From: an uncultured bacterium
Lineage (GTDB): Bacteria; Bacillota; Clostridia; Lachnospirales; Lachnospiraceae
NCBI GenBank assembly: GCA_947063875.1
Contig: CAMSTY010000017.1
Location: forward strand, 1 to 57,266
Direction: 5' to 3'
Length of the DNA: 57,266 bases
Shown: one piece after another, positions 26,866 through 57,147 of the stretch
Layout: every line of letters starts with the position of its first letter
Position numbering within the stretch: position 1 is the first letter of the stretch
The notes under the pieces: generated by a model
Seen by the model: the letters and a program-made list of their open reading frames with translations, nothing else
What the model was told of the DNA's origin: nothing
Databases searched by the model: none
Program-made: the position numbers and the translations under genes

Positions 26866-27864
26866 ATGGAAAAACGTACATTGGGAAAGGGATTGGAAGT
26901 ATCGGCAGTGGGTCTTGGCTGTATGGGATTCAGCCATGCCTACGGAGCGCCTACAGAATATCAGGAAGCGGTTCGGATGATCCGCAGGGCCTCTGAAATG
27001 GGATATACATTGTTCGACAGCGCGGAGGTGTATGGAACCCAGGAAAATCCCCATGATAATGAAATTTTGGTAGGGGAGGCATTGAGGCCATATCGGAACC
27101 AGGTACAGATTGTTTCCAAGTTCGGAATCCGCTTTGACATGACCAGTCCGGAAGTCAATCATCCTTTAATTCCCGATTCCCGGCCGGAAGTGATCCGGAC
27201 TTCGGTGGAGGGTTCTCTCAAACGGCTTCAGACCGATCACATTGATCTCTATTTTCAGCATCGGATCGATCCGGCCGTGGAACCGGAGGCGGTAGCCGGA
27301 GTGATGGCAGATTTGATCAGGGAGGGAAAGATTTTGCACTGGGGGATTTCGGAGGCCAATGAAGAATATCTTCGGCGGGCCCATGAGGTTTGCCCGGTGA
27401 CAGCGGTGGAGAACCGATATTCCATGATGGCCAGGCGGTATGAGGCATTGTTCCCGGTGATGGAGGAGCTGGATATCGGGTTTGTGGCCTTTTCCCCGCT
27501 GGCAAACGGATTTCTGTCCGGAAAGTATGGAAAGAGCGCACAGTTTGATAAAAAGTACGATTACCGCAGCAGCATGCCCCAGTTCCGGCCAGAGGCAGTG
27601 GAGCAAAATCAGCAGCTTCTGGCACTGGTGGGCGGTCTGGCAAAGGAGAAACAGGCCACGCCGGCCCAGATTTCCCTGGCGTGGATGCTCTGTAAAAAAC
27701 CTTGGATCGTGCCAATCCCCGGCACCAGAAAAGAGGAACGGCTGCAGGAGAACGGGGGAGCGGCAGAGGTGAAGCTGACACAGGAAGAGATTGCCGAATT
27801 GGATCAAGCGCTGGATCTGATCCCGATGTCAGAGGTGTTTGGAGGTTTCCGGATTGTAAAATAA
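26866..27864 (+). CDS. aldo/keto reductase
   Basis: The 332-residue cytosolic protein is a typical AKR13-like (YakC/PLR-type) aldo/keto reductase. Visible motifs are GLGCMGFSHAYG, catalytic Asp/Tyr in LFDSAEVYG, Lys in IVSKFGI, His in LYFQHRID, and the NADPH-binding tail IPGTRKEERLQENGGA. It reduces aldehydes or ketones with NADPH. It follows a strong terminator and heads an apparent operon with the flavoprotein, alcohol dehydrogenase and lipoprotein flavodoxin that follow. Its decayed relative lies at 6764. Confidence 0.92.
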   Translation: MEKRTLGKGLEVSAVGLGCMGFSHAYGAPTEYQEAVRMIRRASEMGYTLFDSAEVYGTQENPHDNEILVGEALRPYRNQVQIVSKFGIRFDMTSPEVNHPLIPDSRPEVIRTSVEGSLKRLQTDHIDLYFQHRIDPAVEPEAVAGVMADLIREGKILHWGISEANEEYLRRAHEVCPVTAVENRYSMMARRYEALFPVMEELDIGFVAFSPLANGFLSGKYGKSAQFDKKYDYRSSMPQFRPEAVEQNQQLLALVGGLAKEKQATPAQISLAWMLCKKPWIVPIPGTRKEERLQENGGAAEVKLTQEEIAELDQALDLIPMSEVFGGFRIVK

Positions 27865-27887
27865 TTAAAATAGAGGAGGAAAAACCT

Positions 27888-28523
27888 ATGAAAGTTTTAC
27901 TGGTAAACGGAAGTCCGCACAAGGAGGGGTGCACGTATACGGCTCTCTGTGAGGCAGGGGAGGCATTGAATCAGAATGGGATTGATACCGATTGGTTCTG
28001 GATTGGAAATAAGCCAATCGGGGGCTGCATCGGCTGCCGGAAGTGTGCGGAGAAAAAACAATGTATCTTTTCGGATGTAGTGAACGAGTTTTTAGATCTG
28101 GCAGGGGATTATGATGGGTTTTTATTTGGCACACCGGTTCACTGGGGAGCCGCGGCAGGAGGGATTACCTCGTTTCTTGACCGGGCGTTTTATGCGGATT
28201 TGCAGTCCGGCGGGGATCGGTTCCGTCTGAAGCCGGCAGCGGCTGTCATCTCTGCCAGGCGGGCCGGGACTACGGCGACCTGGGATCAGATTAATAAATA
28301 TTTTGCGCTGCTGCAGATGCCCATTATGACATCCCGGTACTGGAACATTGTCCATGGAGCCAGGCCGGAGGAGGTCAAAAAGGACCGGGAGGGGATGCAG
28401 ACCATGCGGATTCTGGGAAAGAATATGGCATATTTCCTGAAATGTAAGGAGGCAGCCGTAAAAATGGGAATTCCCATGCCGGAACCGGAAAAGGCGGAGT
28501 TTACGAATTTTATCAGGGATTAG
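27888..28523 (+). CDS. flavodoxin-fold NAD(P)H-dependent oxidoreductase (iron-sulfur flavoprotein-like)
   Basis: The 211-residue protein has the NADPH-dependent FMN reductase fold: VLLVNGSPHKEGCTYTAL is the FMN phosphate loop, and GTPVHWGAAAGGITSFLDRA the second FMN loop. The cysteine cluster GCIGCRKCAEKKQC resembles the compact cysteine motif of iron-sulfur flavoproteins. There is no signal peptide, so it acts in the cytosol. The start follows GAGGAGG. It is 23 bases after the aldo/keto reductase gene. The C-terminal half matches the remnant at 7029. Confidence 0.88.
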   Translation: MKVLLVNGSPHKEGCTYTALCEAGEALNQNGIDTDWFWIGNKPIGGCIGCRKCAEKKQCIFSDVVNEFLDLAGDYDGFLFGTPVHWGAAAGGITSFLDRAFYADLQSGGDRFRLKPAAAVISARRAGTTATWDQINKYFALLQMPIMTSRYWNIVHGARPEEVKKDREGMQTMRILGKNMAYFLKCKEAAVKMGIPMPEPEKAEFTNFIRD

Positions 28524-28593
28524 AGCGTGAATATGGGAACAGACAAAAGAGAGGGAGCCGAAAATAATTGACCATAGCAGGAAGGAGATTATC

Positions 28594-29754
28594 ATGAAAG
28601 ATTTTGTTTATTCATATCCGACAAAGGTGTATTTTGGACAGGGAGCGGCAAAGAAGGCGATGACGGCGGAACTTGGCAAGGTGGGAAAAACCGTGATGTT
28701 TGCCTATGGAGGAGGTTCTGTGAAGCGGAGTGGGGTATTCGACGAACTTTGCGGGATGCTGCGGGAAGCGGGAAAAGAGGTGGTGGAGTTTTCCGGAATT
28801 ATGCCAAACCCTACTTATAAAAAAGTACAGGAGGGTGCTGCGCTGGCAAAGGATAAGGGGGTGGATTTCATCCTGGCTGTAGGCGGAGGCTCTGTGATTG
28901 ACTGCTGCAAAATCATTGCGGCACAGGCGGTTACTGAGGAAGATATCTGGAATATGGAATTTGCAGAGCGCCGGTATCCGAATCGGTTTTTGCCCATGGG
29001 CGCCGTGATTACGGCATCCGGCACGGGGGCGGAAATGAATAACGGGGCGGTCATTACCAATGAGGAGACCAGGCAGAAGGCCGGGGTGCTGGGAGCGTAT
29101 GCGGATTTTGCCGTGCTGGACCCGGCGTATACCATGTCGCTGCCCCAAAAGCAGGTGATTTCCGGCGCGTTTGATACTTTAAGTCATTGTATGGAGACTT
29201 ATTTTGGCAGTCCGCGTCAGCTAAACCTTTCGGATGAGATCGGGGAGGCTGTTATGAGAAATGTGATCCGGAATATCCGCGTTTTGTTAAAGGACAGCGG
29301 GGACAGGGAGGCGAGAAGCGAACTGATGTGGGCGTCTGCCATGGGAGAGAACGGAATCCTGAAAATAGGAAAGGTTACGGATTTCCAGGCCCATCAGATT
29401 GAGCACCAGCTGGGAGCCTACACGGATTGTAACCATGGCCAGGGGCTTGCCGTGATTCATCCGGTTCTCTATCGCCATATGTACCGGGACGGTGTGGAGC
29501 AGTTTGCCCGTTTTGCCAGGAATGTCTGGGAGATTTCCAAAGAGGGGAAATCACAGGAGGAACTGGCGGCAGCAGGGGTCCAGGCTCTGGCCGATTTTGT
29601 GAAAGAGATTGGAATGCCCACTACCTTTTCGGAGATGGGAATTACCGACAAGAGTGTGCTGAAGGCAGTGGCGGACAGCTGTAATCTGACAGCCGGGTGC
29701 TGCAGGAAATTCTCCAGGGAAGAAATTCTGGAGATTCTGGAGGAGTGCTGGTAA
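28594..29754 (+). CDS. iron-containing alcohol dehydrogenase (YqhD/butanol-dehydrogenase type)
   Basis: The 386-residue cytosolic protein shows group III alcohol dehydrogenase motifs: GGGSVIDCCK for cofactor binding, and metal ligands in FDTLSHCMETYF and HQIEHQLGAYTDCNHGQGLA. Such enzymes interconvert aldehydes and alcohols with NAD(P)H. The start follows AAGGAG. It is closely similar to the second copy at 44324; each is followed by a flavodoxin-like lipoprotein gene, so the gene pair seems duplicated. Confidence 0.92.
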   Translation: MKDFVYSYPTKVYFGQGAAKKAMTAELGKVGKTVMFAYGGGSVKRSGVFDELCGMLREAGKEVVEFSGIMPNPTYKKVQEGAALAKDKGVDFILAVGGGSVIDCCKIIAAQAVTEEDIWNMEFAERRYPNRFLPMGAVITASGTGAEMNNGAVITNEETRQKAGVLGAYADFAVLDPAYTMSLPQKQVISGAFDTLSHCMETYFGSPRQLNLSDEIGEAVMRNVIRNIRVLLKDSGDREARSELMWASAMGENGILKIGKVTDFQAHQIEHQLGAYTDCNHGQGLAVIHPVLYRHMYRDGVEQFARFARNVWEISKEGKSQEELAAAGVQALADFVKEIGMPTTFSEMGITDKSVLKAVADSCNLTAGCCRKFSREEILEILEECW

Positions 29755-29785
29755 ATAAATGGAACGATTGAGGAGTTTGAAAACG

Positions 29786-30514
29786 ATGAGAAAAATAAAG
29801 AGTATGATGATGGGGATAGCGCTGCTTGCCGTGACGCTGACTGCATGTGGAGGGAAAGAGCAGGCTTCTGCTCCCAGCCAGAATCCGGAGACATCGGCTG
29901 CAGTGGAAAGCCAGAGCCAGGCCGTAGCGGCCAGTGAGGAGACAGAAAACACGGCTGCCGCACAGAGCGAATCCGGGCCGGTGCCGGATAAGGAGGAACC
30001 GAAAATGGCCGGGAATCCGGAAGCTTCTGCCGGAAAGGTGCTGGTGGTTTATTACTCTGCCTCCGGGCATACGGGGGATGTGGCTGAGGTGATTGCAGAA
30101 TATACAGGTGGGGATCTCTTTGAACTGGTGCCGGTGGAGGAATATACCAGCGAGGATTTGAATTGGAGACAGGAGGACAGCAGGGTCAACCGGGAGCATG
30201 AGGATGAGAGCCTGCAGGATATCCAGCTGGTTTCTGCCACTGTGGAGAATTTTGATTCTTATGATACGGTGTTTATCGGCTACCCCATCTGGTGGCAGAA
30301 CGCTTCCTGGGTGGTGAACAGCTTTGTGAAAGAGAATGATTTTACCGGGAAGACGGTAATCCCGTTCTGTACCTCCACCTCTTCCGGTTTCGGGGACAGT
30401 GGAAAAAATCTGGAGAAGATGGCGGGAACTGGAGAATGGAAGGATGGGGAGCGATTCGGTGAGAGACCGGAGAAAAGTGAAGTGACGGAATGGCTGGACA
30501 GCCTGGGACTTTGA
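29786..30514 (+). CDS. flavodoxin-domain lipoprotein
   Basis: The 242-residue product has a lipoprotein signal (TLTAC, Cys21), an acidic and Ser/Ala/Gln-rich linker to about residue 78 and a flavodoxin domain to the end. The FMN phosphate loop is intact (VVYYSASGHTGDVAEVIAE), and the GYPIWWQNAS loop supplies aromatic stacking. It should sit outside the membrane, unlike classical cytosolic flavodoxins. The ATG at 29786 is preferred because GAGGAG precedes it; an upstream in-frame ATG at 29759 has none. Its last codons lie inside the first unit of a 36-bp tandem repeat. Confidence 0.88.
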   Translation: MRKIKSMMMGIALLAVTLTACGGKEQASAPSQNPETSAAVESQSQAVAASEETENTAAAQSESGPVPDKEEPKMAGNPEASAGKVLVVYYSASGHTGDVAEVIAEYTGGDLFELVPVEEYTSEDLNWRQEDSRVNREHEDESLQDIQLVSATVENFDSYDTVFIGYPIWWQNASWVVNSFVKENDFTGKTVIPFCTSTSSGFGDSGKNLEKMAGTGEWKDGERFGERPEKSEVTEWLDSLGL

Positions 30515-30709: not shown

Positions 30710-31804
30710 ATGAGAGGAATGAAAGCAGGAATGCTCGCTGTGCTGGCTGGTTTGACTCTGGCAGCTTCTGCATGCGGGAATCATACCGCCAGTGCAGCCG
30801 ATAGGATGGGTGGCGCGGGCGGAGTAAATGAGGCTGCCGGCGCGGATAGCATGACAGGTGGAGCGAATGAGGCTGCCGCCGCAGAAATGGAGAAAGAGAC
30901 AGTGGAAAACAAAGAGAACGGGCATGCCTATGGAAGGTCTTCCACAGTAAAAGACGTTTTTGAGGACCCGTATTTTGAAGGCTTTGGAAGACTCCTGTTC
31001 CCGGTGGACCGGTCTTTGCCGGAGGAGATGACCTTAGAGCAGGTCAGCAGCAGCCAGGTATACGTCTGGTACAATTACATCGATGCAGATAAAACCGTGG
31101 AGATCCTGGAAAATCTGCATAACCGGGCAGCGGCTGGAGAGACGGTTTTCTATAATATTTATACGGATGAGGAAAGGGCACAGGATTCGTCAAAGGAAGA
31201 CACCGGATTGTTCTTTTTCAGGGGGAATCCCGGAGAAAAATTTGCAGTGGTGAATGCCGGCGGCGGTTTCATGTATGTGGGCGCCATGCACGACAGCTTT
31301 CCTCATGCCCTGGAGCTTTCACGAATGGGGTATAACAGTTTTGCTCTGATTTACCGCCCGGATGGGCCTTATCAGGATTTGGCCCGGGCAATCCGATTTA
31401 TTCATGACCATGCCGGGGAACTGGAGGTAAATCCGGAGGGATATTCTCTGTGGGGCGGTTCTGCCGGGGCACGGATGGCGGCCACCCTGGGAAATAAGGA
31501 GGTTCTGGACTATTTTGGGATGACGGATATTCCCCAGGCTTCTGCAGTGATCATGCAGTACACGGGATATAATACGGCATCCCCCAAGGATGCGCCTGCT
31601 TATGCATGTGTGGGAACCCGTGACGGAATTGCCAGTTGGCGGACCATGAAGGACAGGCTGGAGCGGCTGGAGAAGCTGGGGGTTCCCACGGAATTTCACT
31701 CCTACCAGGGACTTCCCCATGGATTCGGACTGGGGACAGGAACCGTGGCGGAAGGCTGGATTCAGGATGCGGCGGCATTCTGGGAGAAGCAGTGTGAGCA
31801 ATAG
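30710..31804 (+). CDS. secreted alpha/beta-hydrolase lipoprotein (esterase-like)
   Basis: The 364-residue product has a lipobox (AASAC, Cys22) and a Gly/Ala-rich linker with a small repeated segment (GGVNEAAGADSM, GGANEAAAAEM). The hydrolase domain follows: NAGGGFMYVG oxyanion segment, nucleophile Ser in LWGGSAGARMA, acid in CVGTRDGIAS and His in GLPHGFGLG. It resembles acetyl-xylan or BD-FAE type esterases. Acting outside the cell on ester-linked substrates is likely; the substrate is unknown. It follows the tandem repeats and a short gap. Confidence 0.85.
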   Translation: MRGMKAGMLAVLAGLTLAASACGNHTASAADRMGGAGGVNEAAGADSMTGGANEAAAAEMEKETVENKENGHAYGRSSTVKDVFEDPYFEGFGRLLFPVDRSLPEEMTLEQVSSSQVYVWYNYIDADKTVEILENLHNRAAAGETVFYNIYTDEERAQDSSKEDTGLFFFRGNPGEKFAVVNAGGGFMYVGAMHDSFPHALELSRMGYNSFALIYRPDGPYQDLARAIRFIHDHAGELEVNPEGYSLWGGSAGARMAATLGNKEVLDYFGMTDIPQASAVIMQYTGYNTASPKDAPAYACVGTRDGIASWRTMKDRLERLEKLGVPTEFHSYQGLPHGFGLGTGTVAEGWIQDAAAFWEKQCEQ

Positions 31805-39444: not shown

Positions 39445-39479
39445 GATCCTCTCCATTTCCGATTCTTGCCGGTTATCCG

Positions 39480-44172: not shown

Positions 44173-44323
44173 CCTTTATACTGAAAATATGGGAAAATGC
44201 CTGGTGCAGTATTACAGCATCAGCCTGTAGGATTGCAGTACAGGAAAATGCGCCAGTGATGGGAACGGCACGGGAACGGCCGTCCGGGCGGCAGAAGGAA
44301 AAGTATATTTGGAGGAGATGGGA

Positions 44324-45493: not shown

Positions 45494-45580
45494 GGAAAAC
45501 GAGAAAAGATGTAAAAATCGGGAAACGGGACTGGCTCAATGTCAGTTCTCGGGAAAAACAAAAAACAACTGGAGAATATT

Positions 45581-46432
45581 ATGAAAAAACGGCTATTACC
45601 TGGAATGATCCTGTGTTTACTGGCAGCGCTTACCGGATGCGCTGCCTATTCCGGCGATGGGGAAATCCAGGCTCCCATGGTAGACAAAAGTCCTCTGGTT
45701 CTCTATGTCTCCCTTACCGGGGAAGAGGAGCAGCTGGCGGAGGAGATCAGCAGTCTGACCGGCGGCAGAAAAATAGATTTGCAGACAGAGACAGAAATAA
45801 ATCCGGATACCTGTGAAACCATCTATATCGGTTCTTTCTTACAAAACGGGGAAATACTGCCAATGGTAAAAACCTTTCTGAAAGAACAGGATTTTTCCAC
45901 AAAGACGGTGATTCCATTTGGAGTGACAGAGTCCGCGCAGGAAGACCGGAAAGAGAAAATCCCAGGGCAATTGCAGGAAATGTGTCCGGAATCCAGGGTT
46001 CTTGAGGGATTTTTCCCGGAGAAGGGAAAAGGCTGGGAGCAGAAGGAAATGTTAGCCTGGCTGTCCAAAAACGGGCAGGTTATTCCCATTAAAATACTGG
46101 CAGGGGAAGAAGAAGTGGAGGGAGTTTTGTTTGGAAATCCGGTTTCCCGGGAATTTTCCGGTTTGCTTCCAATAGAAGTGCCGCTTTATCAGCCGGCAAA
46201 CTTTGCCAAGGCATTTAACCTTTCCGAGCCTATGACAGACCCGGGAAGCCGTACCCGGCTGTTTGAAAAGGGAGGACTGGCCTACTGGCCGGAAGGTCCG
46301 GCGGTGGCTGTCTTTTTCAGCGACCATGTGGATCGGACCGTGGTTCCGGTCTATACCCTGGGAAAGCTTCTCGAACGGGCGGAACTGTTTGAAGAGTATG
46401 AGGGCACGATAAGAATTGAGAGGGCAGAATGA
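45581..46432 (+). CDS. lipoprotein with flavodoxin-like and cyclophilin-like domains
   Basis: The 283-residue product has a lipobox (ALTGC, Cys20), a flavodoxin-like domain (about 36-163) and a cyclophilin-like domain (about 167-281). In the first domain the phosphate loop is degenerate (LYVSLTGEEEQLAEEI) and the aromatic GYPxWW loop is replaced by GSFLQNG, so FMN binding is doubtful. The second domain has the IPIKILAGEEEVEGVLF, FEKGGLAYWPEGPAVAVFF and TLGKLLERAEL segments of the cyclophilin-like family seen at 3683. GGAG precedes the ATG. It is on the same transcript as the alcohol dehydrogenase and ends at a duplicated 18-bp sequence before a terminator. Confidence 0.78.
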   Translation: MKKRLLPGMILCLLAALTGCAAYSGDGEIQAPMVDKSPLVLYVSLTGEEEQLAEEISSLTGGRKIDLQTETEINPDTCETIYIGSFLQNGEILPMVKTFLKEQDFSTKTVIPFGVTESAQEDRKEKIPGQLQEMCPESRVLEGFFPEKGKGWEQKEMLAWLSKNGQVIPIKILAGEEEVEGVLFGNPVSREFSGLLPIEVPLYQPANFAKAFNLSEPMTDPGSRTRLFEKGGLAYWPEGPAVAVFFSDHVDRTVVPVYTLGKLLERAELFEEYEGTIRIERAE

Positions 46433-46685: not shown

Positions 46686-47543
46686 ATGAAAACCTGGATG
46701 ATAACAGGATGCTCCAGCGGTTTGGGAAGAAGCCTGGCATATGCGGTATTGAGAAAAGGTTATCAGGCTGTAGTAACCGCCCGGAATACAGACACTCTTG
46801 CAGATTTTGAAAAGGAATTTCCCCAGACGGCCCTGATCCTTCCTCTGGATGTGACCGACCCGGCTGCTGTTTCCCAGGCAGTAGAGGCGGCAGAGCGATT
46901 TGGGAGCATCGATGTTCTGGTAAACAATGCAGGCTACGGCTACCGGGCAGCGGTGGAAGAAGGGGAGAAGGAGGATACGGACCGTCTTTTTGCCACCAAT
47001 TTCTGGGGGCCGGTTTCCCTGATGAAGGCGGTGCTGCCGGGAATGAGAAGGATGCGCAGCGGCGCGATTGTCAATATTTCCTCCATCGCGGCACTGGGAA
47101 CGTCCCCGGGTTCCGGTTACTACGCGGCATCCAAATGTGCCCTGGAGGGGTTGTCGGAGGGACTTTTGCGGGAAATTTCCCCACTGGGAATCAAGGTGAT
47201 GGTGGTGGAACCGGGAGCCTTCCGTACCGATTTTGCAGGAAGATCCCTTACCCAGTCAGAGACATGTATCCGTGATTATGAAATGACAGCAGGCAAGCGG
47301 AGAATCGGCAAGGACATGACCCACGGCACACAGCCTGGAGATCCGGATAAAGGCGCCAGTCTGATCATGGAGGCAGTGGAGGCAGAACATACGCCGTTCC
47401 GGCTTTTGCTGGGATCGGATGCTGTTCGGTTTGCAGACGAGGTGTTGGAAGAACGGAGAAAAGAGTATAACGACTGGCGCAGGTTCAGCAAACAGTCTGA
47501 TTTCAAAAGCTGTTATGAGATTTCGGGAATATATCACTTTTAA
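46686..47543 (+). CDS. short-chain dehydrogenase/reductase
   Basis: The 285-residue cytosolic protein has classical SDR motifs: TGCSSGLGRSLA (cofactor binding), NNAGYGY, catalytic Ser in VNISSIAALG and YYAASKCALEG (Tyr and Lys). It reduces or oxidises carbonyl and alcohol substrates. It starts after GGGAGGA and is followed 20 bases later by the bicupin lipoprotein, heading the long plus-strand series to 53259. Confidence 0.92.
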   Translation: MKTWMITGCSSGLGRSLAYAVLRKGYQAVVTARNTDTLADFEKEFPQTALILPLDVTDPAAVSQAVEAAERFGSIDVLVNNAGYGYRAAVEEGEKEDTDRLFATNFWGPVSLMKAVLPGMRRMRSGAIVNISSIAALGTSPGSGYYAASKCALEGLSEGLLREISPLGIKVMVVEPGAFRTDFAGRSLTQSETCIRDYEMTAGKRRIGKDMTHGTQPGDPDKGASLIMEAVEAEHTPFRLLLGSDAVRFADEVLEERRKEYNDWRRFSKQSDFKSCYEISGIYHF

Positions 47544-47563
47544 AAATGGAGGAATTAGAAACG

Positions 47564-48706
47564 ATGAGAAAGAAAACGATAGGTAGAAAAGAGAGAAGAA
47601 TAAGAGGGAAAAAAAGAGGAAGCCTGGCGGCAGTGTCACTGATGAGCCTTGTCCTCGCAGCCTGCGGGGGCGGCGCTTCCCAGACCACCCAGCCTGCACA
47701 GACGGAGACTGCGGCCCAGGAAAGTGCCGTGCAGGAAGGGGAAGCCGGTGCTGATGAAGCAGGGGGACAGGAACAGGCAACGGAAGGGAACATCGGAGAA
47801 GAGAAGGGTGTGGATGGGCAGGAAGCAGCAGCGGATACGGATATTGCCACATCCATGGAGGACCTGGCATTTGCTCCCGGCGGGAAGATCGAGTCCGATA
47901 CTTTTACGGGAAATGCCTACATAAAACCCATGGTCATGAATGACGAAATATATAATTTCCCTCAGACCAACAATATCATCTTTGAGCCGGGAGCCAGAAG
48001 CGGTTGGCATACCCATGGAGGCATGGTGATTATCGGAACCGGAGGCACCGGCTATTACCAGGAGGAGGGAAAGCCTGCCCAGATCATCCGGGAGGGGGAT
48101 GTGATTGAATGTGAGGCTGGTGTGAAGCACTGGCACGGAGCGACGCCGGACAGCTGGTTTTCTCAGATTGTGATATATGATTCCCATTATACGGCACCGG
48201 AGGGTGCAGAGGCGGAGGAACCGGTGACGGATGAGTACTATGAGGATCTGGAGACAGAGGACTATGCGGGGCGCGTGGTTACCGATGATAATCTCTTTAT
48301 GTTCCAGAAGGCAGAGGAGCCGTTAATCAGCGACACCTTCAGCGGCCCGGCCTACGTATCTTCCATTATCGGTGATGACAATGTGGCAGATGCCCCGGGG
48401 CTTCATTATGTGGTGTTTGAACCGGGAGTTATCAACAACTGGCATACCCATGAGGGAGGCCAGATCCTGATCGCCACTGATGGGATCGGTTATCATCAGG
48501 TAGAGGGCGGAGAGGTGGAAGTTTTGTATCCCGGGGATGTGGCGCTGTGCCCGCCAGGAGTAAAGCATTGGCATGGCGGCAGCGCAGACACGGAATTTGC
48601 CCATATCGCGGTGAACACCAATCCGGAACTTACAGGACTGGAATGGTTTGACCGGATTTCCGAGGAGGAGTACGGTCAGCTTCCAACAGAGAAGACAGAA
48701 GAGTAA
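47564..48706 (+). CDS. secreted bicupin lipoprotein
   Basis: The 380-residue product has a basic N-terminus, lipobox (VLAAC, Cys34), an acidic linker to about residue 100 and two cupin barrels. Each carries a metal-binding set: SGWHTHGG with KHWHG in the first, and NNWHTHEGG with KHWHG in the second. The barrels are about 40% alike by eye, suggesting an internal duplication. It is likely a metal-dependent enzyme or binding protein outside the cell. GGAGGAAT precedes ATG 47564; the earlier in-frame ATG at 47546 overlaps that site. Confidence 0.88.
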   Translation: MRKKTIGRKERRIRGKKRGSLAAVSLMSLVLAACGGGASQTTQPAQTETAAQESAVQEGEAGADEAGGQEQATEGNIGEEKGVDGQEAAADTDIATSMEDLAFAPGGKIESDTFTGNAYIKPMVMNDEIYNFPQTNNIIFEPGARSGWHTHGGMVIIGTGGTGYYQEEGKPAQIIREGDVIECEAGVKHWHGATPDSWFSQIVIYDSHYTAPEGAEAEEPVTDEYYEDLETEDYAGRVVTDDNLFMFQKAEEPLISDTFSGPAYVSSIIGDDNVADAPGLHYVVFEPGVINNWHTHEGGQILIATDGIGYHQVEGGEVEVLYPGDVALCPPGVKHWHGGSADTEFAHIAVNTNPELTGLEWFDRISEEEYGQLPTEKTEE

Positions 48707-48737: not shown

Positions 48738-50522
48738 ATGTTTAACAAGAAAGCAGCAGTATCAGGCATGGGAATGATTCTGGCAGCAGCCCTGACAATG
48801 ACAGGCTGCTCTTCCCAGGGAACATCCCCTGCACCGGCTCAGACGGAGGCCCAGACAGAGCCGGGGGCACCGGAAGGGGAAGAAAAAACCCAGGAAAGTG
48901 ATAACCGTGAGAATACCACGGCAGAAGCAGCCGGGGATGGCAAGGCAGTGAAAGGCGGCACTGTGGAGGCCGGGCCGGATATTGCCGTGGTGGATACGAA
49001 AGCAGGAAAGCTTCAGGGTTATATCAGTAACGGAATCTATACCTATCACGGGATTCCCTACGCCCAGGCAGAGGAGCGTTTCACAGAGGCTCATGAGACA
49101 GAGCCATGGGAAGGCGTAAGGATGGCTTTTGATTACGGGGCAATTTCTCCCCAGGTTTTCCAGGGTTCCATACGGGGAGGCGATTTTATGGACAATAACT
49201 GCCAGAACTTAAATGTCTGGACTCCGGGGATCCATGACGGAGAGAAGCGTCCGGTCATGGTATGGCTTCATGGAGGCGGATTCTCCACGGGTTCTTCCAT
49301 TGAGCAGGAAGCCTATGACGGGGAGAATTTAAGCAGCAAGGGAGATGTGGTGGTGGTTTCTGTCAACCACCGTCTCAATGTGCTGGGACATCTGAACCTG
49401 GAACGCTATGACGAGAAATACAAAAATTCCGGAAATGTGGGAATCACAGACATTATTCATGCCCTGGAGTGGGTTCAGGACAATATCGAACAGTTTGGCG
49501 GAGATCCGGAAAACGTGACCGTATTCGGTGAGTCCGGCGGAGGCGCCAAGGTGCTGGCTCTGATGACTTCCCCTGATGCCAAGGGGTTGTTCCACAAGGG
49601 GATTGTGGAGAGTGGAGCCACAGAGACCATGGGGGTTGTCTTTATGCCCTGGGAGGCCAGTGAGCGGGTGACGGAACTTACCCTGGAGAAGCTGGGAATC
49701 ACCGAAGACCGGATCGAAGACTTACAGAGCATTTCCTATGAGGAACTGACTGCCGCATCCGATGAGGCGCTGATCCAGACCGGAGAAGAATTTCAGATCC
49801 CGGCGGCCCTGGGTTCCGGATATTCCCTGTCCTGGGAGCCGGTGGTGGATGGTGAGTTCCTTCCCACAGACCCGGTGACAGAAGAATCCTTTGCTGAGGC
49901 AGGGAGGGAGATACCCCTTCTGATTGGTTCTAACTTAAATGAGTGGGAGACCATGGATCTGATCATGAATCAGGCTCAGGCCCAGTATGACAACAAGCAT
50001 ACCTGGAGTGAGGAGGAGATCCAGGCACGGCTGGAGGAAAAGTACGCGGACCAGGCGGAGGAGATCACAGAGGCATTTCTGGAGGCCTATCCGCACAGAA
50101 CGGCGGCAGATGCCTTGTATGTGGATTCCACGGTTATCCGTCTGCCCATGTTAAAGATCATGTCCCATAAGGCAGACCAGGGCGGCGCTCCTGTATATGC
50201 GTATATGTTTAACTGGGAATCTCCGGTCCTGCCTGGTACGAATATGGCCTATCACACAGCGGAAATCCCCTTTGTATTTAATAATATCGACAAAGCGGTG
50301 ATGAGGATTGGCGGCGGAGAAGAAGCAAGGCGGATTGAGGATGCCATGAGCCAGGCATGGATCAATTTTGCCAGGACAGGAGACCCGTCAACAGAAGGGA
50401 TGGAGTGGCCGGCCTATACCCGGGACAGTGGCGCTACCATGATATTTGACACGGTGCAGGAGGTGGTTTATCACCACGATGATAAGCTGATGTCTTTGCT
50501 GGCACCGGATTATGAATATTAA
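48738..50522 (+). CDS. type-B carboxylesterase lipoprotein
   Basis: The 594-residue product has a lipobox (TMTGC, Cys24), a Glu/Thr/Ala-rich linker to about 75 and a carboxylesterase domain: GIPYAQAEERF, VMVWLHGGGFSTGS (oxyanion hole), nucleophile Ser in VFGESGGGAK, and the His region YHTAEIPFVF. It would hydrolyse ester bonds outside the membrane. It lies 31 bases after the bicupin gene and just before the small flavoprotein gene. Confidence 0.92.
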   Translation: MFNKKAAVSGMGMILAAALTMTGCSSQGTSPAPAQTEAQTEPGAPEGEEKTQESDNRENTTAEAAGDGKAVKGGTVEAGPDIAVVDTKAGKLQGYISNGIYTYHGIPYAQAEERFTEAHETEPWEGVRMAFDYGAISPQVFQGSIRGGDFMDNNCQNLNVWTPGIHDGEKRPVMVWLHGGGFSTGSSIEQEAYDGENLSSKGDVVVVSVNHRLNVLGHLNLERYDEKYKNSGNVGITDIIHALEWVQDNIEQFGGDPENVTVFGESGGGAKVLALMTSPDAKGLFHKGIVESGATETMGVVFMPWEASERVTELTLEKLGITEDRIEDLQSISYEELTAASDEALIQTGEEFQIPAALGSGYSLSWEPVVDGEFLPTDPVTEESFAEAGREIPLLIGSNLNEWETMDLIMNQAQAQYDNKHTWSEEEIQARLEEKYADQAEEITEAFLEAYPHRTAADALYVDSTVIRLPMLKIMSHKADQGGAPVYAYMFNWESPVLPGTNMAYHTAEIPFVFNNIDKAVMRIGGGEEARRIEDAMSQAWINFARTGDPSTEGMEWPAYTRDSGATMIFDTVQEVVYHHDDKLMSLLAPDYEY

Positions 50523-50546
50523 CAGATGGAGGGGAATGGTGAAATA

Positions 50547-51011
50547 ATGAAAAATCTATTTATAAACGGCAGTCCCAATAAAGCAGGAAATACCGTGGCT
50601 CTTGCAAAAGCAGCGTTTGACAATGATTCTTATGAAACCCTTGCTCTTGTAGATTATAAGGTCTACAGCTATGGCCAGACATTTGAGGATGATCAGTTTG
50701 AGATGGTGCTGTCAAAGATGAAAGAGGCGGATCAGATTGTAATCGGTTCCCCCGTATATTGGCACAGCATGAGCGGAGCGCTCCGCAATCTGCTTGACCG
50801 TTTTTATGGCCCGGTCAGGCAGGGGGCCCTTCAGGGGAAGAAACTGATGTTTCTTTTCCAGGGGGCAGCCCCGGAAGGCTGGATGCTGGAAAAGGCAGAA
50901 TATACCATGAGCCGTTTTGCAAAATTATATGGCATGGAATACCTGGGAATGGCAACAACCCAGGATGAGGCAGAAAAGCTGGGCCAAAAAATGAGGCGAT
51001 TTCCGTGCTGA
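50547..51011 (+). CDS. flavodoxin-fold NAD(P)H oxidoreductase (cytosolic)
   Basis: The 154-residue protein is a short member of the FMN reductase group: LFINGSPNKAGNTVALAK (phosphate loop), IVIGSPVYWHSMSGALRNLL (second loop) and FLFQGAAPEGWM. There is no signal peptide. The best start is the ATG at 50547, with GGTGA four bases upstream; an in-frame ATG at 50526 adds seven residues. It overlaps the MATE start by seven bases. Confidence 0.85.
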   Translation: MKNLFINGSPNKAGNTVALAKAAFDNDSYETLALVDYKVYSYGQTFEDDQFEMVLSKMKEADQIVIGSPVYWHSMSGALRNLLDRFYGPVRQGALQGKKLMFLFQGAAPEGWMLEKAEYTMSRFAKLYGMEYLGMATTQDEAEKLGQKMRRFPC

Positions 51012-52366
51012 AGAAAAGGGAATTGTCAGAAAGGGAACTGTTTGAGGAGATTCCGGTACCGAGGGCGGTTACGATTTTGGCAATCCCTACGATCATCAGC
51101 CAGATTGTAACCATGATCTACAATCTGGCTGATACATTTTTTATCGGGCAGTTGAGCAATCCTTATATGGTGGCAGCCGTTTCCCTGGTTTATCCCTGGT
51201 TCAATCTGATCACGGCATTGGGAAATCTGTTTGGTATCGGCGGAAGCAGCCTGATCTCCCGAATGCTGGGGGCAGGTGATCATGAGGACGCCAGATATGT
51301 GTCTGCGTTCAGCCTGTATGGGGGAGCGGCTGTCACCCTGGGTTTTTCTGCGGCTACCTATGTAGCCCGGAGGCCAATTTTAGAGTTTTTGGGAGCCAGT
51401 GAGGAGACATTTCTTTATGGAGAACAATATCTGTTCCTGGTAGTGGTGCTTGGAGGGATTCCCACAATGCTGAGTCTGACGCTGGCCCATTTGCTGCGAA
51501 GCGAAGGGCATGCCAAACAGGCCAGCGCCGGTATGATGCTGGGAGGAATCCTGAACATGATTCTGGACCCGATCCTTATTTTTTTGTTTGATATGGGGAT
51601 TCAGGGAGCCGCCCTTGCAACCGTTGTCTCTAATATGGTTTCCGTATTATTTTTTGCTGCCGCTTTCCTGCGGCTTGGCAGAAAGACCGCGGTATCCCTG
51701 CTTCCCAGGCATTTTACATTCCGGTTTATGGGGCCGGTTTGTTCCGTGGGACTGGCGTCTGCTTTGGCTACGACCCTTGCCAGTGCGTCGAATATGGTAA
51801 TCGTGAAACTGGCTTCCGGTTATGGAGATATTCCGGTGGCAGCATATGGAATTGTAAAAAAGATTGACAGCTTTCCCTTAGGGGTAAGCATGGGCCTTTG
51901 CCAGGGTTTCATGCCTTTGGTTGGTTATAACTTTGCTTCCGGAAATTACAGGCGAATGAGGGATATTTCCCTTTTTTCATGGAAAGCAGCCATGATATTT
52001 TCCGCATGTACCGTGGCTCTTTTTTGGGGGTTTGCGCCGCAGATTTTATATCTGTTTATTCCGGAGGCCCGGACCAGTATGCAGGGAGCGGAATTTTTGC
52101 GGATTGCCAGTCTTGCGGTACCTTTTACAGCCGTGAACGGACTGATCTGTTATACCTTGCAGGCCATGGGAAAGGGAGCTCCTTCTGCGGTTCTGACTTC
52201 CTGCCGGCAGGGACTGGTGAATATCCCCCTTTTAGTGGTGATGAATCTGGCAATTGGACTTTACGGCATGATCTGGACGCAGCTGGTGACGGAACTGATT
52301 ATGCTGCCCATATCACTGATCATGTATTATGCCACCCTGCATAAATTAAACGGCAGGGCAGCCTGA
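51005..52366 (+). CDS. MATE-family exporter (second copy)
   Basis: The 453-residue protein has about twelve hydrophobic helices and MATE features: IPTIISQIVTMIYNLADTFF, a GGILNMILDPILIFL segment and VGYNFASGNYRR. The GTG start at 51005 overlaps the preceding gene, with GAGGCG eight bases upstream. In a redox and esterase operon it could export a reaction product or toxin. Only moderate likeness to the MATE protein at 453 is seen. Confidence 0.9.
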   Translation: MLKKRELSERELFEEIPVPRAVTILAIPTIISQIVTMIYNLADTFFIGQLSNPYMVAAVSLVYPWFNLITALGNLFGIGGSSLISRMLGAGDHEDARYVSAFSLYGGAAVTLGFSAATYVARRPILEFLGASEETFLYGEQYLFLVVVLGGIPTMLSLTLAHLLRSEGHAKQASAGMMLGGILNMILDPILIFLFDMGIQGAALATVVSNMVSVLFFAAAFLRLGRKTAVSLLPRHFTFRFMGPVCSVGLASALATTLASASNMVIVKLASGYGDIPVAAYGIVKKIDSFPLGVSMGLCQGFMPLVGYNFASGNYRRMRDISLFSWKAAMIFSACTVALFWGFAPQILYLFIPEARTSMQGAEFLRIASLAVPFTAVNGLICYTLQAMGKGAPSAVLTSCRQGLVNIPLLVVMNLAIGLYGMIWTQLVTELIMLPISLIMYYATLHKLNGRAA

Positions 52367-52383: not shown

Positions 52384-53259
52384 ATGATTTGCAGACATCA
52401 TATAGTATTAGGAACCGGTATTTTTTTGGCGGCGCTGGCCCTGGCAAGTTGTGTCCGGAGGCCGGCTTCCGGGTTGGCCAGGACCCAGGCAGCAATCCGG
52501 ATTCAGGCAGAATCAGAGGAACAAGCAAATGGATTTATTACCGGACAGATTCTGGACGGGGCGGATGGGGAGATCCATTACAGCTACTATCTTCCTCCTG
52601 GTTATGATGAGAGCAGGAATTATCCGCTGATGGTGGCGATGCCAGGCTATGATGCCATGTGGTTTGGAGAACCTTCCTCTGGGAAGAACCTGGATTGGAG
52701 AGGCACCCTTGTATGGACCGAAAGAGAGGAAGATCTGATTGTGGTTTCCGCCCAGCTGACAGACTGGGGGGAGAAATCGGCAAGGCAGGTAATTGAACTG
52801 ACAGAGTACATGCTGGAGAATTTTTCTGTAGACCGCGCAAGGGTTTATGGAGTCGGCTATTCCGCAGGAGGGGAGACCATGTCCAGAGCGATATCCATGC
52901 GTCCGGATTTGTTTGCTGCTTATCTTCATGGAGCGTCCCAGTGGGACGGGACTTTTGATACAGTGGCAGAAAGTGGAGTCGCCGTATATATATTTATGGC
53001 GGAAAATGATGAGTATTATGGCTCGCAAAAGGCGAGAGAGGCATATGAAGGACTTTATAAAGCTTATGGGCAGGCAGGATGGAGCAGGGAACAGATCGGG
53101 GAACTTCTGAAGCTGGAGATTTTGGAGGATTCCTATTTTAACAGCCAGGGAATCTACCATTACCATGGAGGGGGAAATATAGTATTGGAAGAGGAGCGGG
53201 TGCAAAATTGGATTCTGTCAAAATCCCGTTCCGGAACGGTTATGGATATTACCGAATGA
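52384..53259 (+). CDS. secreted esterase-like lipoprotein (alpha/beta hydrolase)
   Basis: The 291-residue product has a lipobox (ALASC, Cys23) and an alpha/beta-hydrolase domain: HYSYYLPPGYDESRNYPLMV, nucleophile Ser in GVGYSAGGETM, acid in MAENDEYYGS and His in GIYHYHGGGN. The pattern resembles the feruloyl/acetyl esterase or PHB depolymerase-like group. It follows the second MATE gene by 17 bases and is last in that run of genes. Confidence 0.85.
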   Translation: MICRHHIVLGTGIFLAALALASCVRRPASGLARTQAAIRIQAESEEQANGFITGQILDGADGEIHYSYYLPPGYDESRNYPLMVAMPGYDAMWFGEPSSGKNLDWRGTLVWTEREEDLIVVSAQLTDWGEKSARQVIELTEYMLENFSVDRARVYGVGYSAGGETMSRAISMRPDLFAAYLHGASQWDGTFDTVAESGVAVYIFMAENDEYYGSQKAREAYEGLYKAYGQAGWSREQIGELLKLEILEDSYFNSQGIYHYHGGGNIVLEEERVQNWILSKSRSGTVMDITE

Positions 53260-53499: not shown

Positions 53500-54216
53500 G
53501 TGGACAGACCTTATACCATTTGTCATATATTAAGTTCATTAAACGGGAAAATATCAGGGCCGTTCATGGGTGACGGAGGAGTTCTGACAGCAGCTTCTGA
53601 GTATGGGAGGCTCCGTCAGGAGATGAAGGGAAACGCCTGGCTGTATGGGACAACCACCACGAAAGAGTTTACCGGACACAAGAAGCCGGAACTGCCAGGG
53701 GAGAACAGCTTTGTACCGCCAGGGGATTATGTGGCGGATAACCGGTCCCTTTTGTATTACGTTTCCGTGGATACAGAAGGAGAGATCGGATGGAAGTCTG
53801 GGAGGTTTTCCATAAGAGGAAATGATGCCCATGTGATTGAAATTCTGACAGAGCAGACCTCCACAGCTTACCGGGTTTATCTGAGAAAACAGAAGGTTTC
53901 TTATATTCTTGCAGGAAATGAGGCTCTGGACTGTAAGCTGGCAGAAGAAAAGCTGTATCGGCTTTTTGGAATTAAGACGCTGATTATCTGTGGCGGCGGT
54001 ATTGTAAACTGGTCTTTTCTGCAGGCGGGAGCTGTGGACGAGTTAAGTCTTGTGCTAGCTCCGGCTGCAGACGGGGAGACAAAGCAGGCATCCGTGTTTG
54101 AACGGGCCGTTTTTTTGCCAAAGGATGTGATGGTGGGATTTCGGCTGAAAGAGGTGCAGGCGCTAAAGGACAACGCGGTCTGGCTGACTTATCTGGTCAG
54201 AAAACAGGAGGAGTAG
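53500..54216 (+). CDS. RibD C-terminal domain (dihydrofolate-reductase-like) family protein
   Basis: The 238-residue cytosolic protein has the RibD_C/DHFR-like fold: CHILSSLNGKISGPFM at the start, WLYGTTTTKEF, VSYILAGNEALDCKLAEEKL and IICGGGIVNWSFLQAG. Relatives reduce pyrimidine or pterin-like rings with NADPH. The deaminase half of full-length RibD is absent. The GTG at 53500 has AAGGAG upstream. It is four bases before the ApbE gene, a link that could supply or adjust flavin precursors. Confidence 0.85.
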   Translation: MDRPYTICHILSSLNGKISGPFMGDGGVLTAASEYGRLRQEMKGNAWLYGTTTTKEFTGHKKPELPGENSFVPPGDYVADNRSLLYYVSVDTEGEIGWKSGRFSIRGNDAHVIEILTEQTSTAYRVYLRKQKVSYILAGNEALDCKLAEEKLYRLFGIKTLIICGGGIVNWSFLQAGAVDELSLVLAPAADGETKQASVFERAVFLPKDVMVGFRLKEVQALKDNAVWLTYLVRKQEE

Positions 54217-54219
54217 CCG

Positions 54220-55344
54220 ATGAAGGGCGGAAAAGGGATCTGGAAAGAGAGGATTCTCACCATGGCGGCCATTCTCATTCTTGCAGGGACAGGGATGACT
54301 TGGCTGGGAAATATAACAGTTCCGGGAATGCAGACCTTGCGCGAACCGGAAAATTCCGCTAGGAAAGCCGTGGGGGAGGCGCTGGTACAGGATTCCCCCG
54401 AATCCCAGACATTTTTGGCTATGGACACCGTGATTTCCATGGAAATATATGGAGATCATAAAGAAGAAGCTGTAAAAAAATCGGTGGATCAGATCAATAG
54501 CCTGGAGGCTTTGTGGTCTGTAACAAGAGAAGGAAGCCAGGTCTATGAACTGAATCATCACCAGGGAAGTCCCGTGAAGGTCAGTAAAGAAACGGCAGAA
54601 CTGATTTCTTTTGCCCTGGAGATGGAGCGGGAGACGGAAGGCGCGTTGAATCCGGCCCTGTATCCGATTGTGAAAGCCTGGGGATTTACCACAAGAGAAT
54701 ATCAGATTCCGGACAAACAAAAACTGCAGAGGCTGCTGGAGCATACCGATTTTCAGAAGCTGCAGATAGAGGAGGGAACCGTCACCCTGCCGGAGCAGAT
54801 GGAAATTGATTTTGGAGCTATTGCCAAAGGGTATACCGGGGATTTGGTGGTGGAGACGATGAAGAAATATGGAATCACTTCCGGGATTGTGAATCTGGGA
54901 GGAAATGTGGCCCTGATCGGGAATGCCCCTGATGGCAAACCATGGCGGACAGGTATCCGCAGTCCCTACGGAGAGGGAACCATAGGAGTCCTGGAAGCCG
55001 GGGATTGCCATATCATTACATCCGGCGGTTATGAACGGTATTTTACCGGTGAGGACGGAACGGTCTACTGGCATATCCTGAATCCGGAAACAGGCTGCCC
55101 GGCTGACAGTGGGATTATCTCGGCAACGATTGTGGGGACGGAGGGAAAACGGTGTGACGCCCTTTCCACGGCTGTGTTTGTCATGGGACTTGAGAAGGCG
55201 GAAGCCTACTGGAGAACCCATGAGGGGATCGAGATGATCCTGGTCACAGAGGACAACCAGATTTATCTGACAGAAGGACTGGACGGCAGATTTGCCTTAA
55301 ATGAAATGAGCCAGGGAATCCCTGTTCATGTGATAAAAAAGTAA
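54220..55344 (+). CDS. apbE: FAD:protein FMN transferase ApbE
   Basis: The 374-residue protein has an N-terminal membrane helix (about 9-30) and an ApbE domain: FLAMDTVISMEIYG, LNPALYPIVKAWGF, MEIDFGAIAKGYTGD, the GGNVALIG loop, HILNPETGCPADSG and the Mg2+ site CDALSTAVFVMG. ApbE transfers FMN from FAD to a Thr or Ser of outer-face proteins. No protein in this window shows the usual flavinylation motif (Asp/Asn-G-x-T-G-A-T type). Its place between the RibD-like protein and two exported flavodoxins suggests a role in their flavin supply or maturation. Confidence 0.92.
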   Translation: MKGGKGIWKERILTMAAILILAGTGMTWLGNITVPGMQTLREPENSARKAVGEALVQDSPESQTFLAMDTVISMEIYGDHKEEAVKKSVDQINSLEALWSVTREGSQVYELNHHQGSPVKVSKETAELISFALEMERETEGALNPALYPIVKAWGFTTREYQIPDKQKLQRLLEHTDFQKLQIEEGTVTLPEQMEIDFGAIAKGYTGDLVVETMKKYGITSGIVNLGGNVALIGNAPDGKPWRTGIRSPYGEGTIGVLEAGDCHIITSGGYERYFTGEDGTVYWHILNPETGCPADSGIISATIVGTEGKRCDALSTAVFVMGLEKAEAYWRTHEGIEMILVTEDNQIYLTEGLDGRFALNEMSQGIPVHVIKK

Positions 55345-55369
55345 ATAGATAAGATCAGGAGGAAACACA

Positions 55370-56268
55370 ATGAAAAAAAAATATTAGTACCGGCAGCAAT
55401 CATGATGACCCTTGCCATGGCAACAACAGCCTTGGCTGGTGTCTGGAGAACCGGAGAGGGAACCAATGGGAACCGGTGGTGGTACGATGATGAGGACGGC
55501 ACCTACGCGGTGAGTGAATGGAGATGGCTGGATGGAAACCAGGATGGGATTGCAGAGTGTTATGCCTTTGACAGCAATGGCTGGATGTATGCGAACACTA
55601 CCACTCCCGACGGCTATGTGGTCAATGCCGATGGGGCATGGACAGTAAACGGGGTTGTTCAAACCCAGTCTGTGAATTCCCAGACTCAGGATGCTTCCCA
55701 GAACGGAGGCGAAACCCAGGGCAATTCCAGAATTCTGGTTGCTTACTATACCTTGCCGGAGACAGACGGAACCAATACGGATGCGGGAGCCAGCCGGGTG
55801 GCGGTGAATGGCCAGGTTCAGGGAAACATGGAATATATGGCCAATACGATTGCCCAGGCCACAGGGGGCAGACTGTTTGAGATTGATACGGTACAGACCT
55901 ATCCGGGACTTCATGAACCCCTGGTGAACCAGGCGGCCCGGGAACTGGATGCGGACTACCGTCCGGAGTTATCCACCCATATTGATAATCTTGAGGATTA
56001 TGATGTGATTTTTGTAGGATATCCCATCTGGTGGGGAGAGATGCCCATGGCTATGTACTCCTTCTTTGATGAATATGACCTCAGTGGGAAGACGGTAATC
56101 CCCTTCTCCAGCCATGGGGGAAGCGGCTTCTCCGGGACGATCAGTGTGGTTGCAGGTCTGGAGCCAGGAGCGAATGTAATGAGAAACGGATATACGGTGT
56201 CCAGAGGAAGCGTAGCCGGAGATGCGGCGAATTTGAGAAGATGGGTGGAAGGACTGAATCTGAATTAA
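55370..56268 (+). pseudogene. secreted flavodoxin with an N-terminal wall-binding-like domain (start frameshifted)
   Basis: The only good start (ATG 55370, AGGAGG upstream) is followed by nine A residues and runs out at TAG. With one more A it would read MKKKILVPAAIMMTLAMATT then ALAGVW, a clean Sec signal continuous with the long frame open from 55402 to 56268. The mature part has a choline-binding/cell-wall-repeat-like domain (GNRWWYDDEDGTYAV, DGNQDGIAECYAFDSNGWMY), a Gln/Asn linker and a flavodoxin domain (ILVAYYTLPETDGTNTDAGA, VGYPIWWGEMPM, PFSSHGGSGFSGT). It may be expressed by slippage on the A-run, or an A may be missing from the data. Confidence 0.82.
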
Positions 56269-56328
56269 ACAAGTATGATAAGGTGGCTTTCACAATTTGT
56301 TTATGCTTGAGAAAGGTATGGTGAAAAG

Positions 56329-57147
56329 ATGAAAAAAAGAAGATTGGCTGTATTGTCTGCCGCAGTTTTATATTGCTTTACCCTGTCCTTAACCGGCTGT
56401 GGCAGTTCGGGAAGCGTTGTCAGTTCGGCAGCTGCAGAGGAGACAGCAAAGGAAACTGCTGAAGGCCAGCAGGAGAACGGGAACAGGGAGACAAATGAGG
56501 AAATAAAGATTGAAGAGGCAGTGAGCGGAGAGACAGCAAGTGGAGGGACAACAACTGAGGAGACAATGAATTCAGGGAGCGGAGAGCCAACAACCAATGA
56601 CAGTTCCATCCTGATTGCTTATTTCACAGTTCCGGAGACGGATGGAAGCGATACGGAGGCAGGAGCCAGCCGTTATGTGGTGGACGGAAGGGTTTATGGA
56701 AACATGGAATATATGGCAGAGCAGATCAGCAAAAGAACCGGCGGAGAATTGTTTGAAATAAAAACAGTTCAGGAGTATCCGGGAACTCATGAGCCGCTGG
56801 TAGACCAGGCAGCCCAGGAGCAGGATGAGGCGGCCCGCCCGGAACTGGCGTCTCATGTGGAGGATATGGACCGTTATGAAGTAATATTTTTGGGGTTCCC
56901 TAACTGGTGGGGGGATATGCCCATGCCTCTTTATACATTTCTGGAGGAATATGATCTTGACGGGAAAAAGGTGATTCCTTTTAACAGCCATGGCGGAAGC
57001 CGGTTTTCCAGGACCATAGAAACAATCCAGGATCTGCAGCCGGGAGCGGATGTGGTTACCGACGGATACACCGTTTCGCGGAACGACATGAACCAGGCAG
57101 CGGCTGGGATAGAGAACTGGCTTTCGGGATTAGGATATCCGGAATAA
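56329..57147 (+). CDS. flavodoxin-domain lipoprotein
   Basis: The 272-residue product has a lipobox (SLTGC, Cys24), a Glu/Thr-rich linker to about residue 83 and a flavodoxin domain closely similar to that of the gene at 55370: ILIAYFTVPETDGSDTEAGA, LGFPNWWGDMPMP and PFNSHGGSRFSRTIETIQDL. It lacks the compact T-x-T-G phosphate loop and instead has the AGASRYVVDG insertion. It is anchored outside the membrane. It starts 60 bases after the preceding flavodoxin. The last 120 bases of the window show no gene. Confidence 0.9.
   Translation: MKKRRLAVLSAAVLYCFTLSLTGCGSSGSVVSSAAAEETAKETAEGQQENGNRETNEEIKIEEAVSGETASGGTTTEETMNSGSGEPTTNDSSILIAYFTVPETDGSDTEAGASRYVVDGRVYGNMEYMAEQISKRTGGELFEIKTVQEYPGTHEPLVDQAAQEQDEAARPELASHVEDMDRYEVIFLGFPNWWGDMPMPLYTFLEEYDLDGKKVIPFNSHGGSRFSRTIETIQDLQPGADVVTDGYTVSRNDMNQAAAGIENWLSGLGYPE

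Follow-up and report, generated by a model that had tools for sequence, protein, structure and literature searches.

Why does one stretch of a gut-type Lachnospiraceae genome encode eight flavodoxin-fold proteins, several of them predicted to be exported, and by what route might electrons reach them? The window considered here, that is, the whole stretch of DNA that was analysed, is one entire contig (C17; CAMSTY010000017.1 of assembly GCA_947063875.1; 57,266 bases) out of the 111 that make up a 3.49 Mb genome, and the island in question spans positions 26866 to 57147, with genes on the plus strand unless stated otherwise. Flavodoxins share this island with a DUF4405 membrane cytochrome, an ApbE flavin transferase and several predicted surface enzymes. 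The reading that we favour, with a probability of roughly 0.6, is that the island carries electrons from the inside of the cell to the outside, where they would supply surface enzymes that act on ester-bearing compounds.

The three redox families of the island are already connected in the literature. According to the portions of PMC11334425 (mSystems 2024) drawn on here, ApbE covalently flavinylates a serine or threonine in the insertion between β1 and α1 that some Flavodoxin_4 proteins carry, a DUF4405 protein binds heme b and is likened to MsrQ/PepSY-type cytochromes, and clusters containing apbE and DUF4405 often include a flavinylated Flavodoxin_4 protein along with a flavin transporter. 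Additionally, a profile search described in a section of PMC5898192 placed DUF4405 near cytochrome b561. The DUF4405 protein of the window (41163..41816, TTG start; PF14358, 39.3 bits against a cut-off of 26.7) has five histidines (H32, H46, H111, H125 and H129) that are invariant in 41 sequences and also in a set of 24. A preliminary description of this DNA had named it the sole transmembrane candidate; it is indeed the only redox-type membrane protein noticed in the island by scans covering part of the window genes, but a MATE transporter (51005..52366; itself unscanned by Pfam and grouped by similarity with a protein at 453 that is MatE by Pfam) and a phosphotransferase system permease at 32960 (recognised by eye) are present as well. 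The permease and a IIA part occupy two overlapping frames (32960-34775) and, judged by eye, probably represent one broken gene.

By Pfam, eight flavodoxin-fold genes lie between 27888 and 57147, within 29 kb, which agrees with the earlier count: two FMN_red proteins, five Flavodoxin_4 proteins, and one protein combining a weak Flavodoxin_5/3/4 match with Cyclophil_like2. Five of the eight had been described as exported. Four of these (29759, 40307, 45539 and 56329) have a lipobox and are clear predicted lipoproteins, whereas the fifth, at 55370, has an export-like start with an ATG that is out of frame. Fld1 (29759..30514; PF12682, 139.7 bits; lipobox LTAC) is a predicted exported lipoprotein with an ordinary phosphate loop for flavin mononucleotide (FMN) and without the flavinylation motif, defined here as [DN]xx[STA][SGT][AP][ST] inside the insertion; its sequence relatives in the PDB are 4ICI, 3KLB and 4J8P, of which 3KLB is given as an FMN-bound structure in part of PMC11334425. 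Two other predicted lipoproteins are motif-bearing, namely Fld3 (40307..41077; Pfam match and lipobox), with DAVSSAS at residues 94-100, and Fld5 (56329..57147; PF12682, 84 bits; lipobox), with DTEAGAS at residues 108-114; in the alignment, the motif sits shortly upstream of the conserved GN of the phosphate loop. A model of Fld5 from a 28-sequence alignment is confident at the first strand (94-98) and from about 121 to 267, with strands and helices in a flavodoxin-like order, and less certain in the motif insertion, whose two blocks have a mean pLDDT (predicted local distance difference test score) of 59 and 73.

The remaining flavodoxin-fold proteins are more varied. The lipoprotein at 45539..46432 (lipobox; PF18050, 50 bits; PF12724, 28.2 bits) joins a flavodoxin domain to Cyclophil_like2, and Fld2 (39720..40271; Flavodoxin_4, 90.4 bits), with no signal and predicted to be cytosolic, has the insertion without the motif. 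Fld4 (55370..56268; Pfam match) combines choline-binding repeats with a Flavodoxin_4 domain bearing NTDAGAS, in which N replaces D. The flavodoxin open reading frame, whose first in-frame ATG is at 55402, is not in register with the ATG and ribosome-binding site at 55370, and a run of A separates the two; on contig C68 of the same genome, a homologue of the 55402 protein has an unbroken signal-like start. Sequencing error, slippage or phase variation could each account for this mismatch. FMNred1 (27888..28523; NADPH-dependent FMN reductase type; PF03358, 92.6 bits, scanned from 27879) and FMNred2 (50526..51011; PF03358, 70.2 bits) show no signal by eye and are predicted to be cytosolic flavoproteins, the former being a candidate cytosolic electron donor. 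The apbE gene (54220..55344; PF02424, 281.6 bits; hydrophobic N-terminus, no lipobox) lies directly upstream of Fld4 and Fld5 and 12.4 kb from DUF4405.

Does the pairing of cytochrome and flavodoxin extend beyond this window? A DUF4405 relative was detected in 74 of 299 family genomes (E <= 1e-5) and in 5 of 24 genus genomes (E <= 1e-10), the window's own genome being counted in both. Neighbourhoods were sampled in 32 of the 74 positive genomes as 40 stretches, each 5 to 20 kb long; because mostly best matches to the window DUF4405 gene were taken, the set leans towards its kin. With two overlapping stretches dropped, Flavodoxin_4 was found in 33 of 38 neighbourhoods versus 1 of 20 control stretches, taken at round-number positions in six of the sampled genomes (Fisher p = 8e-10), and the same 33 and 1 were recovered from the window's five sequences alone and from a profile trained on these loci. 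Chance clustering of flavodoxins with DUF4405 is ruled out by this random-stretch control. Half of the DUF4405 genes (20/40) have a Flavodoxin_4 domain fused to them or encoded on the same strand within 300 bp, rising to 32/40 within 3 kb, and an FMN reductase is immediately adjacent in 4/40. At the genome level, the first 20 DUF4405-positive genomes listed hold 80 Flavodoxin_4 matches versus 24 in the first 20 negatives (79 in 18 versus 22 in 14 among genomes at least 90% complete), some matches being pieces of one gene. By hand count, DUF4405 and Flavodoxin_4 share a contig and lie no more than 10 kb apart in 16 of the 20 positives (exceptions G001, G007, G021 and G040), and 10 of the 20 negatives still have a Flavodoxin_4 match.

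Other families recur in the 38 neighbourhoods: aldo/keto reductase (20), LysR (20), YqhD-like alcohol dehydrogenase (14), cupin (13), FMNred1 (13), short-chain dehydrogenase (6), RibD_C (6), FMNred2 (5), ApbE (5), MATE (4) and BaiCD-like (1), with none of these partners in the 20 controls except LysR, FMNred1 and MATE, once each. As separate observations, 8 of the 38 neighbourhoods contain a DUF362 lipoprotein and 8 an ArsP-type permease, seven of them having both, and neither occurs in the 20 controls; the neighbourhoods concerned include L048, L055, L061, L063, L064, L071 and L082. Relatives of a Cyclophil_like2 lipoprotein with a lipobox, encoded at 3683-4411 of the window some 22 kb upstream of the island, occur in 4 of 38 neighbourhoods versus 0 of 20 controls.

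Domain fusions also connect cytochrome and flavodoxin. Ten cases of DUF4405 and flavodoxin in one chain were found, six bearing DAVSGAS (L070, L127, L128, L130, L134 and L139), one DASAHAS (L132), and three (L055, L059 and L064, the last truncated within the flavodoxin) with a linking stretch between DUF4405 and an ordinary-loop flavodoxin; an eleventh, L120, comes from the window's genus. Pfam identifies the linking stretch as an FGE-sulfatase domain in L055 and L120; in L059 and L064 the assignment is by resemblance. The Pfam cut-off for DUF4405 is reached by L055, L070 and L120, with L127 just below it; L134 and L139 lack a Pfam DUF4405 match at 0.001 and are called from a profile built in this analysis, as are L128, L130 and L132, for which no Pfam scan was made. 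In all ten fusions, lysine plus arginine outnumber aspartate plus glutamate in the stretch before the last helix, and this basic loop predicts that the flavodoxin part lies outside the cell. Seven of the ten are also richer in acidic residues in the 30 residues after the last helix (L070 and L139 are not, and L132 is even), and in L128, L134 and L139 the stretch before the last helix measures 48-51 residues, one helix being undetected. A search of the open-access PMC literature turned up no paper on these flavodoxin fusions, and the main text of PMC11334425 contains no word starting with fusion, fused, cyclophilin, esterase, aldo or NADPH.

The exported flavodoxins themselves fall into two principal kinds. 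Among 83 full Flavodoxin_4 domains scored (13 partial matches were excluded), 63 have predicted export, called by our own simple rules from a lipobox or an N-terminal hydrophobic stretch, and they comprise 27 with the flavinylation motif, 33 with an ordinary loop and 3 with neither. The motif is thus absent from 36 of 63, and by these predictions exported domains lacking it are at least as common in these loci as those bearing it. This tempers the statement in part of PMC11334425 that signs of flavinylation are seen in exported members. Of the 20 domains without a visible signal, the only one bearing the motif is the window protein at 55402, with its out-of-frame start (0/19 otherwise); L060, signal-less and truncated by the end of its contig, carries EAVSSAS, a near motif. 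Among random 72-residue stretches of similar composition, 0.9% match the pattern. The data do not support a single origin of the motif, as starred branches of a tree force at least two changes; the tree is built on few columns, many of its forks are weak, the domain start was cut off, and the pattern used for it also allowed E, giving 30 motif rows that include L048 7799, possibly a chance match.

What might these flavodoxins serve at the surface? The three secreted esterases and the bicupin proposed in the preliminary description are present, with lipoboxes in all four: EstA (30710..31804; BD-FAE/Abhydrolase_3 type by Pfam), a carboxylesterase (48738..50522; PF00135, 323.8 bits), EstC (52384..53259; PF00326, 38.7 bits; weak PDB relatives 3DOH and 8DAJ) and a predicted exported bicupin (47546..48706; two Cupin_2 stretches and two HxH...H sites). 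All three esterases have a GxSxG motif, and every EstA-like open reading frame among the matches listed has a lipobox. In sequence, the bicupin has matches to 2F4P as well as to the cupins 4UXA, 4BIF and 8OZ8; cupin hydroxynitrile lyases, followed as a literature lead, led to nothing. In other loci, flavodoxins are fused to such enzymes and to further domains: to a hydrolase in two genomes (L074, and L121 with motif DAISGAS), to a bicupin in L103 and L104 (DAVAGAS), to Cyclophil_like2 in L043 and L053, to an FGE domain in L043 and to a second flavodoxin in L046.

The same gene set occurs in another layout in a sister species. The nearest DUF4405 relatives detected in named genomes (57% identity) lie on four contigs, which come from bacterium D16-56, from the genome of a Clostridiaceae isolate and from two metagenome-assembled genomes; L103-L105 are similar in layout where they overlap, and L106 differs at its start. 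D16-56, at first taken for another genus, belongs by comparison to the window's own, so that the conservation is between species and not genera. There, Fld3, DUF4405, the flavodoxin-cyclophilin protein, a flavodoxin-bicupin fusion, EstC, the carboxylesterase and Fld1 follow one another on one strand, in a run that also includes a two-component pair, a double EstA, a hydrolase-like lipoprotein with no Pfam match, FMNred2, a DUF362 lipoprotein and an ArsP-type permease. Nine proteins of this run have counterparts in the window (36-72% identity), and the D16-56 stretch yielded no match to ApbE. The proposed assignment of esterases and bicupin to the same system as the electron route is supported by the two layouts of one gene set and by the fusions, within fewer genomes than the route itself.

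The sister operon has probably moved recently. Contig C68 of the window genome (L116, 120-18588) contains the first half of a D16-56-type run and ends where Fld3 and DUF4405 would be expected, so the count of a single DUF4405 gene in this genome may be an assembly limit. C68 and D16-56 (L117, L123 and L124) are 98.2-99.7% identical in DNA over 18.7 kb, and two other genes compared between the two species are 83% (window 25018) and 72% (a second apbE) identical, which points to a recent transfer as the probable explanation. Relative to C68, D16-56 has an extra 8.8 kb encoding an aldo/keto reductase, a short-chain dehydrogenase, an alcohol dehydrogenase and LysR. Next to the run are genes for a type IV coupling protein, a VirB4-like P-loop protein, a transglycosylase-C39 protein, DUF6017, DUF6100 and a sortase, and the sister operon is probably on a conjugative element. 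No conjugation-type genes were seen among the scanned window genes.

Under the favoured reading, cytosolic reducing power, perhaps via the FMN reductases, would pass to the DUF4405 heme b cytochrome in the membrane and from there to flavodoxin domains at the outer face. FMN would be held covalently, attached by ApbE to the insertion serine, in 56329, 40307 and probably 55402, and in the ordinary phosphate loop in 29759. The exported flavodoxins would in turn feed surface enzymes, with the esterases, bicupin and cyclophilin-like module acting on the same ester-bearing compound, and the products might be finished in the cytosol by the aldo/keto reductase, alcohol dehydrogenases and short-chain dehydrogenase. 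The segment from cytosol through DUF4405 to exported flavodoxin, which the preliminary description had proposed as an electron route across the membrane, is well supported by genomic linkage, fusions and motif, together with heme b binding and flavinylation reported for homologues in part of PMC11334425. For the direction of flow, the cytosolic donor, the redox role of the bicupin and the substrate, we infer the roles given here, as with the earlier suggestion of a reductive pathway on ester or aromatic substrates.

Several observations weigh against this reading. No flavin transporter was found among the Pfam-scanned window genes, and the flavodoxin domain at 45539 has a degenerate look: in the alignment, the usual phosphate loop is gone, as is a portion of the domain. 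EstA and EstC occur in only 4 and 3 of the 38 neighbourhoods, respectively, and a carboxylesterase in none, with all three absent from the 20 controls; an exported carboxylesterase and an exported bicupin were seen only in the window and the D16-56-type loci (L103 and L104), and of the 13 neighbourhood cupins, single or joined to another domain, 11 have no signal and 2 a hydrophobic stretch only. ApbE is near DUF4405 in just 5 of 38 neighbourhoods (a fragment in L043) versus 0 of 20 controls (p = 0.15, not significant). The co-occurrence expected earlier across Lachnospiraceae thus held for Flavodoxin_4 with DUF4405 but not for ApbE. As ApbE is present in 55 of 57 genomes searched (31/33 and 24/24), including 14 DUF4405-negative ones, its position in the island says little, and its linkage was dropped as evidence. 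The two genomes lacking it, G284 and G007, have no motif-bearing flavodoxin in the sampled neighbourhoods, which is consistent, though the sample is small.

The strongest competitor, which we nonetheless consider rather unlikely, is a defence against carbonyls, quinones or electrophiles, in which cytosolic aldo/keto reductases, alcohol dehydrogenases and FMN reductases would operate alongside flavodoxin-type quinone reduction outside, and the esterases would be a side activity. Aldo/keto reductases and YqhD-like enzymes are typical of carbonyl reduction, the flavodoxin fold is common to known quinone reductases, and the frequency of these partners and of LysR near DUF4405 (20/38, 14/38 and 20/38) would fit. 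It leaves unexplained, however, the fusions of flavodoxin to esterase and bicupin and the three exported esterases in the same gene runs. The same fusions, being covalent links to hydrolases and cupins, speak for dedicated partners and make it improbable that the island simply disposes of electrons outside the cell to any acceptor, such as iron, humics or quinones, with esterases that merely share the locus, even though several ApbE-linked systems of this type are described in parts of PMC11334425 and PMC8238504. That part of the exported domains are FMN-free and act as binding or structural domains, as the losses at 45539 and the L066 protein, which combines a hydrolase domain with a partial match to flavodoxin, might suggest, is very improbable when 60 of the 63 full exported domains have the motif or an ordinary loop.

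In outline, then, the electron route is already in print, and what this analysis adds to a known system is its set of enzymes and its domain fusions. Shared with the system in the portions of PMC11334425 drawn on here are the three families, the β1-α1 insertion with a flavinylation-like motif, the conserved histidines and the flavodoxins, predicted here to be exported. Unlike that system, apbE is usually not adjacent in the window and its relatives, the scanned window genes include no flavin transporter, the flavodoxins take two forms (motif-bearing and ordinary-loop), and there are single chains of cytochrome and flavodoxin as well as flavodoxins fused to esterases, bicupin, FGE-like and cyclophilin-like domains. 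Flavin-based extracellular electron transfer of the Listeria type (in part PMC8238504) is alike in its ApbE-dependent outside flavins and membrane electron carrier, and differs in that the window has no FMN_bind match; the two such matches of the genome are on contigs C41 and C101, one of them, by eye, in an Rnf-type locus. MsrQ and PepSY-type flavinylation-associated cytochromes likewise pair a heme membrane protein with an outside redox protein, but the families differ.

By their spacing, genes of the island form three packed runs (39720-42702, 46686-53259 and 53500-57147). Ahead of these lie a cytosolic aldo/keto reductase (26866..27864; PF00248, 241 bits) and an iron-containing alcohol dehydrogenase (28594..29754; PF00465/PF25137), presumably YqhD-like. 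The Fld2-Fld3-DUF4405 group is flanked by a divergent LysR regulator (38560..39531, minus strand) and by a second one (41803..42702) that overlaps the end of the DUF4405 gene. A second iron-containing alcohol dehydrogenase (44309..45493) reads better than a minus-strand frame at 43940-45250, which was dropped as a gene. A short-chain dehydrogenase (46686..47543; Pfam) opens the tightly packed run to 53259, and a RibD C-terminal domain reductase (53500..54216; PF01872) ends 3 bp upstream of apbE. Elsewhere in the window, an old-yellow-enzyme type protein (Oxidored_FMN with a pyridine nucleotide domain) is split across two frames at 36220-38303, and on the minus strand at 12989-15551 a microbial PARG adjoins a NADAR-NUDIX-NrtR protein, an ADP-ribose type gene pair.

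These results give the published DUF4405-flavodoxin route likely downstream partners, and the fused proteins name pairs that would be expected to exchange electrons. They also suggest that flavodoxins outside the cell are often without the flavinylation motif, against a simple rule that equates export with covalent flavin. Tentatively, gut Lachnospiraceae may possess a dedicated extracellular reductive system carried on conjugative elements, in which the cytochrome would power modular surface flavodoxins physically linked to catalytic domains, among them esterases and metal-dependent cupins; dietary or host compounds bound as esters would thereby be cleaved and reduced outside the cell. The sister operon suggests that such systems can move between bacteria along with conjugation genes.

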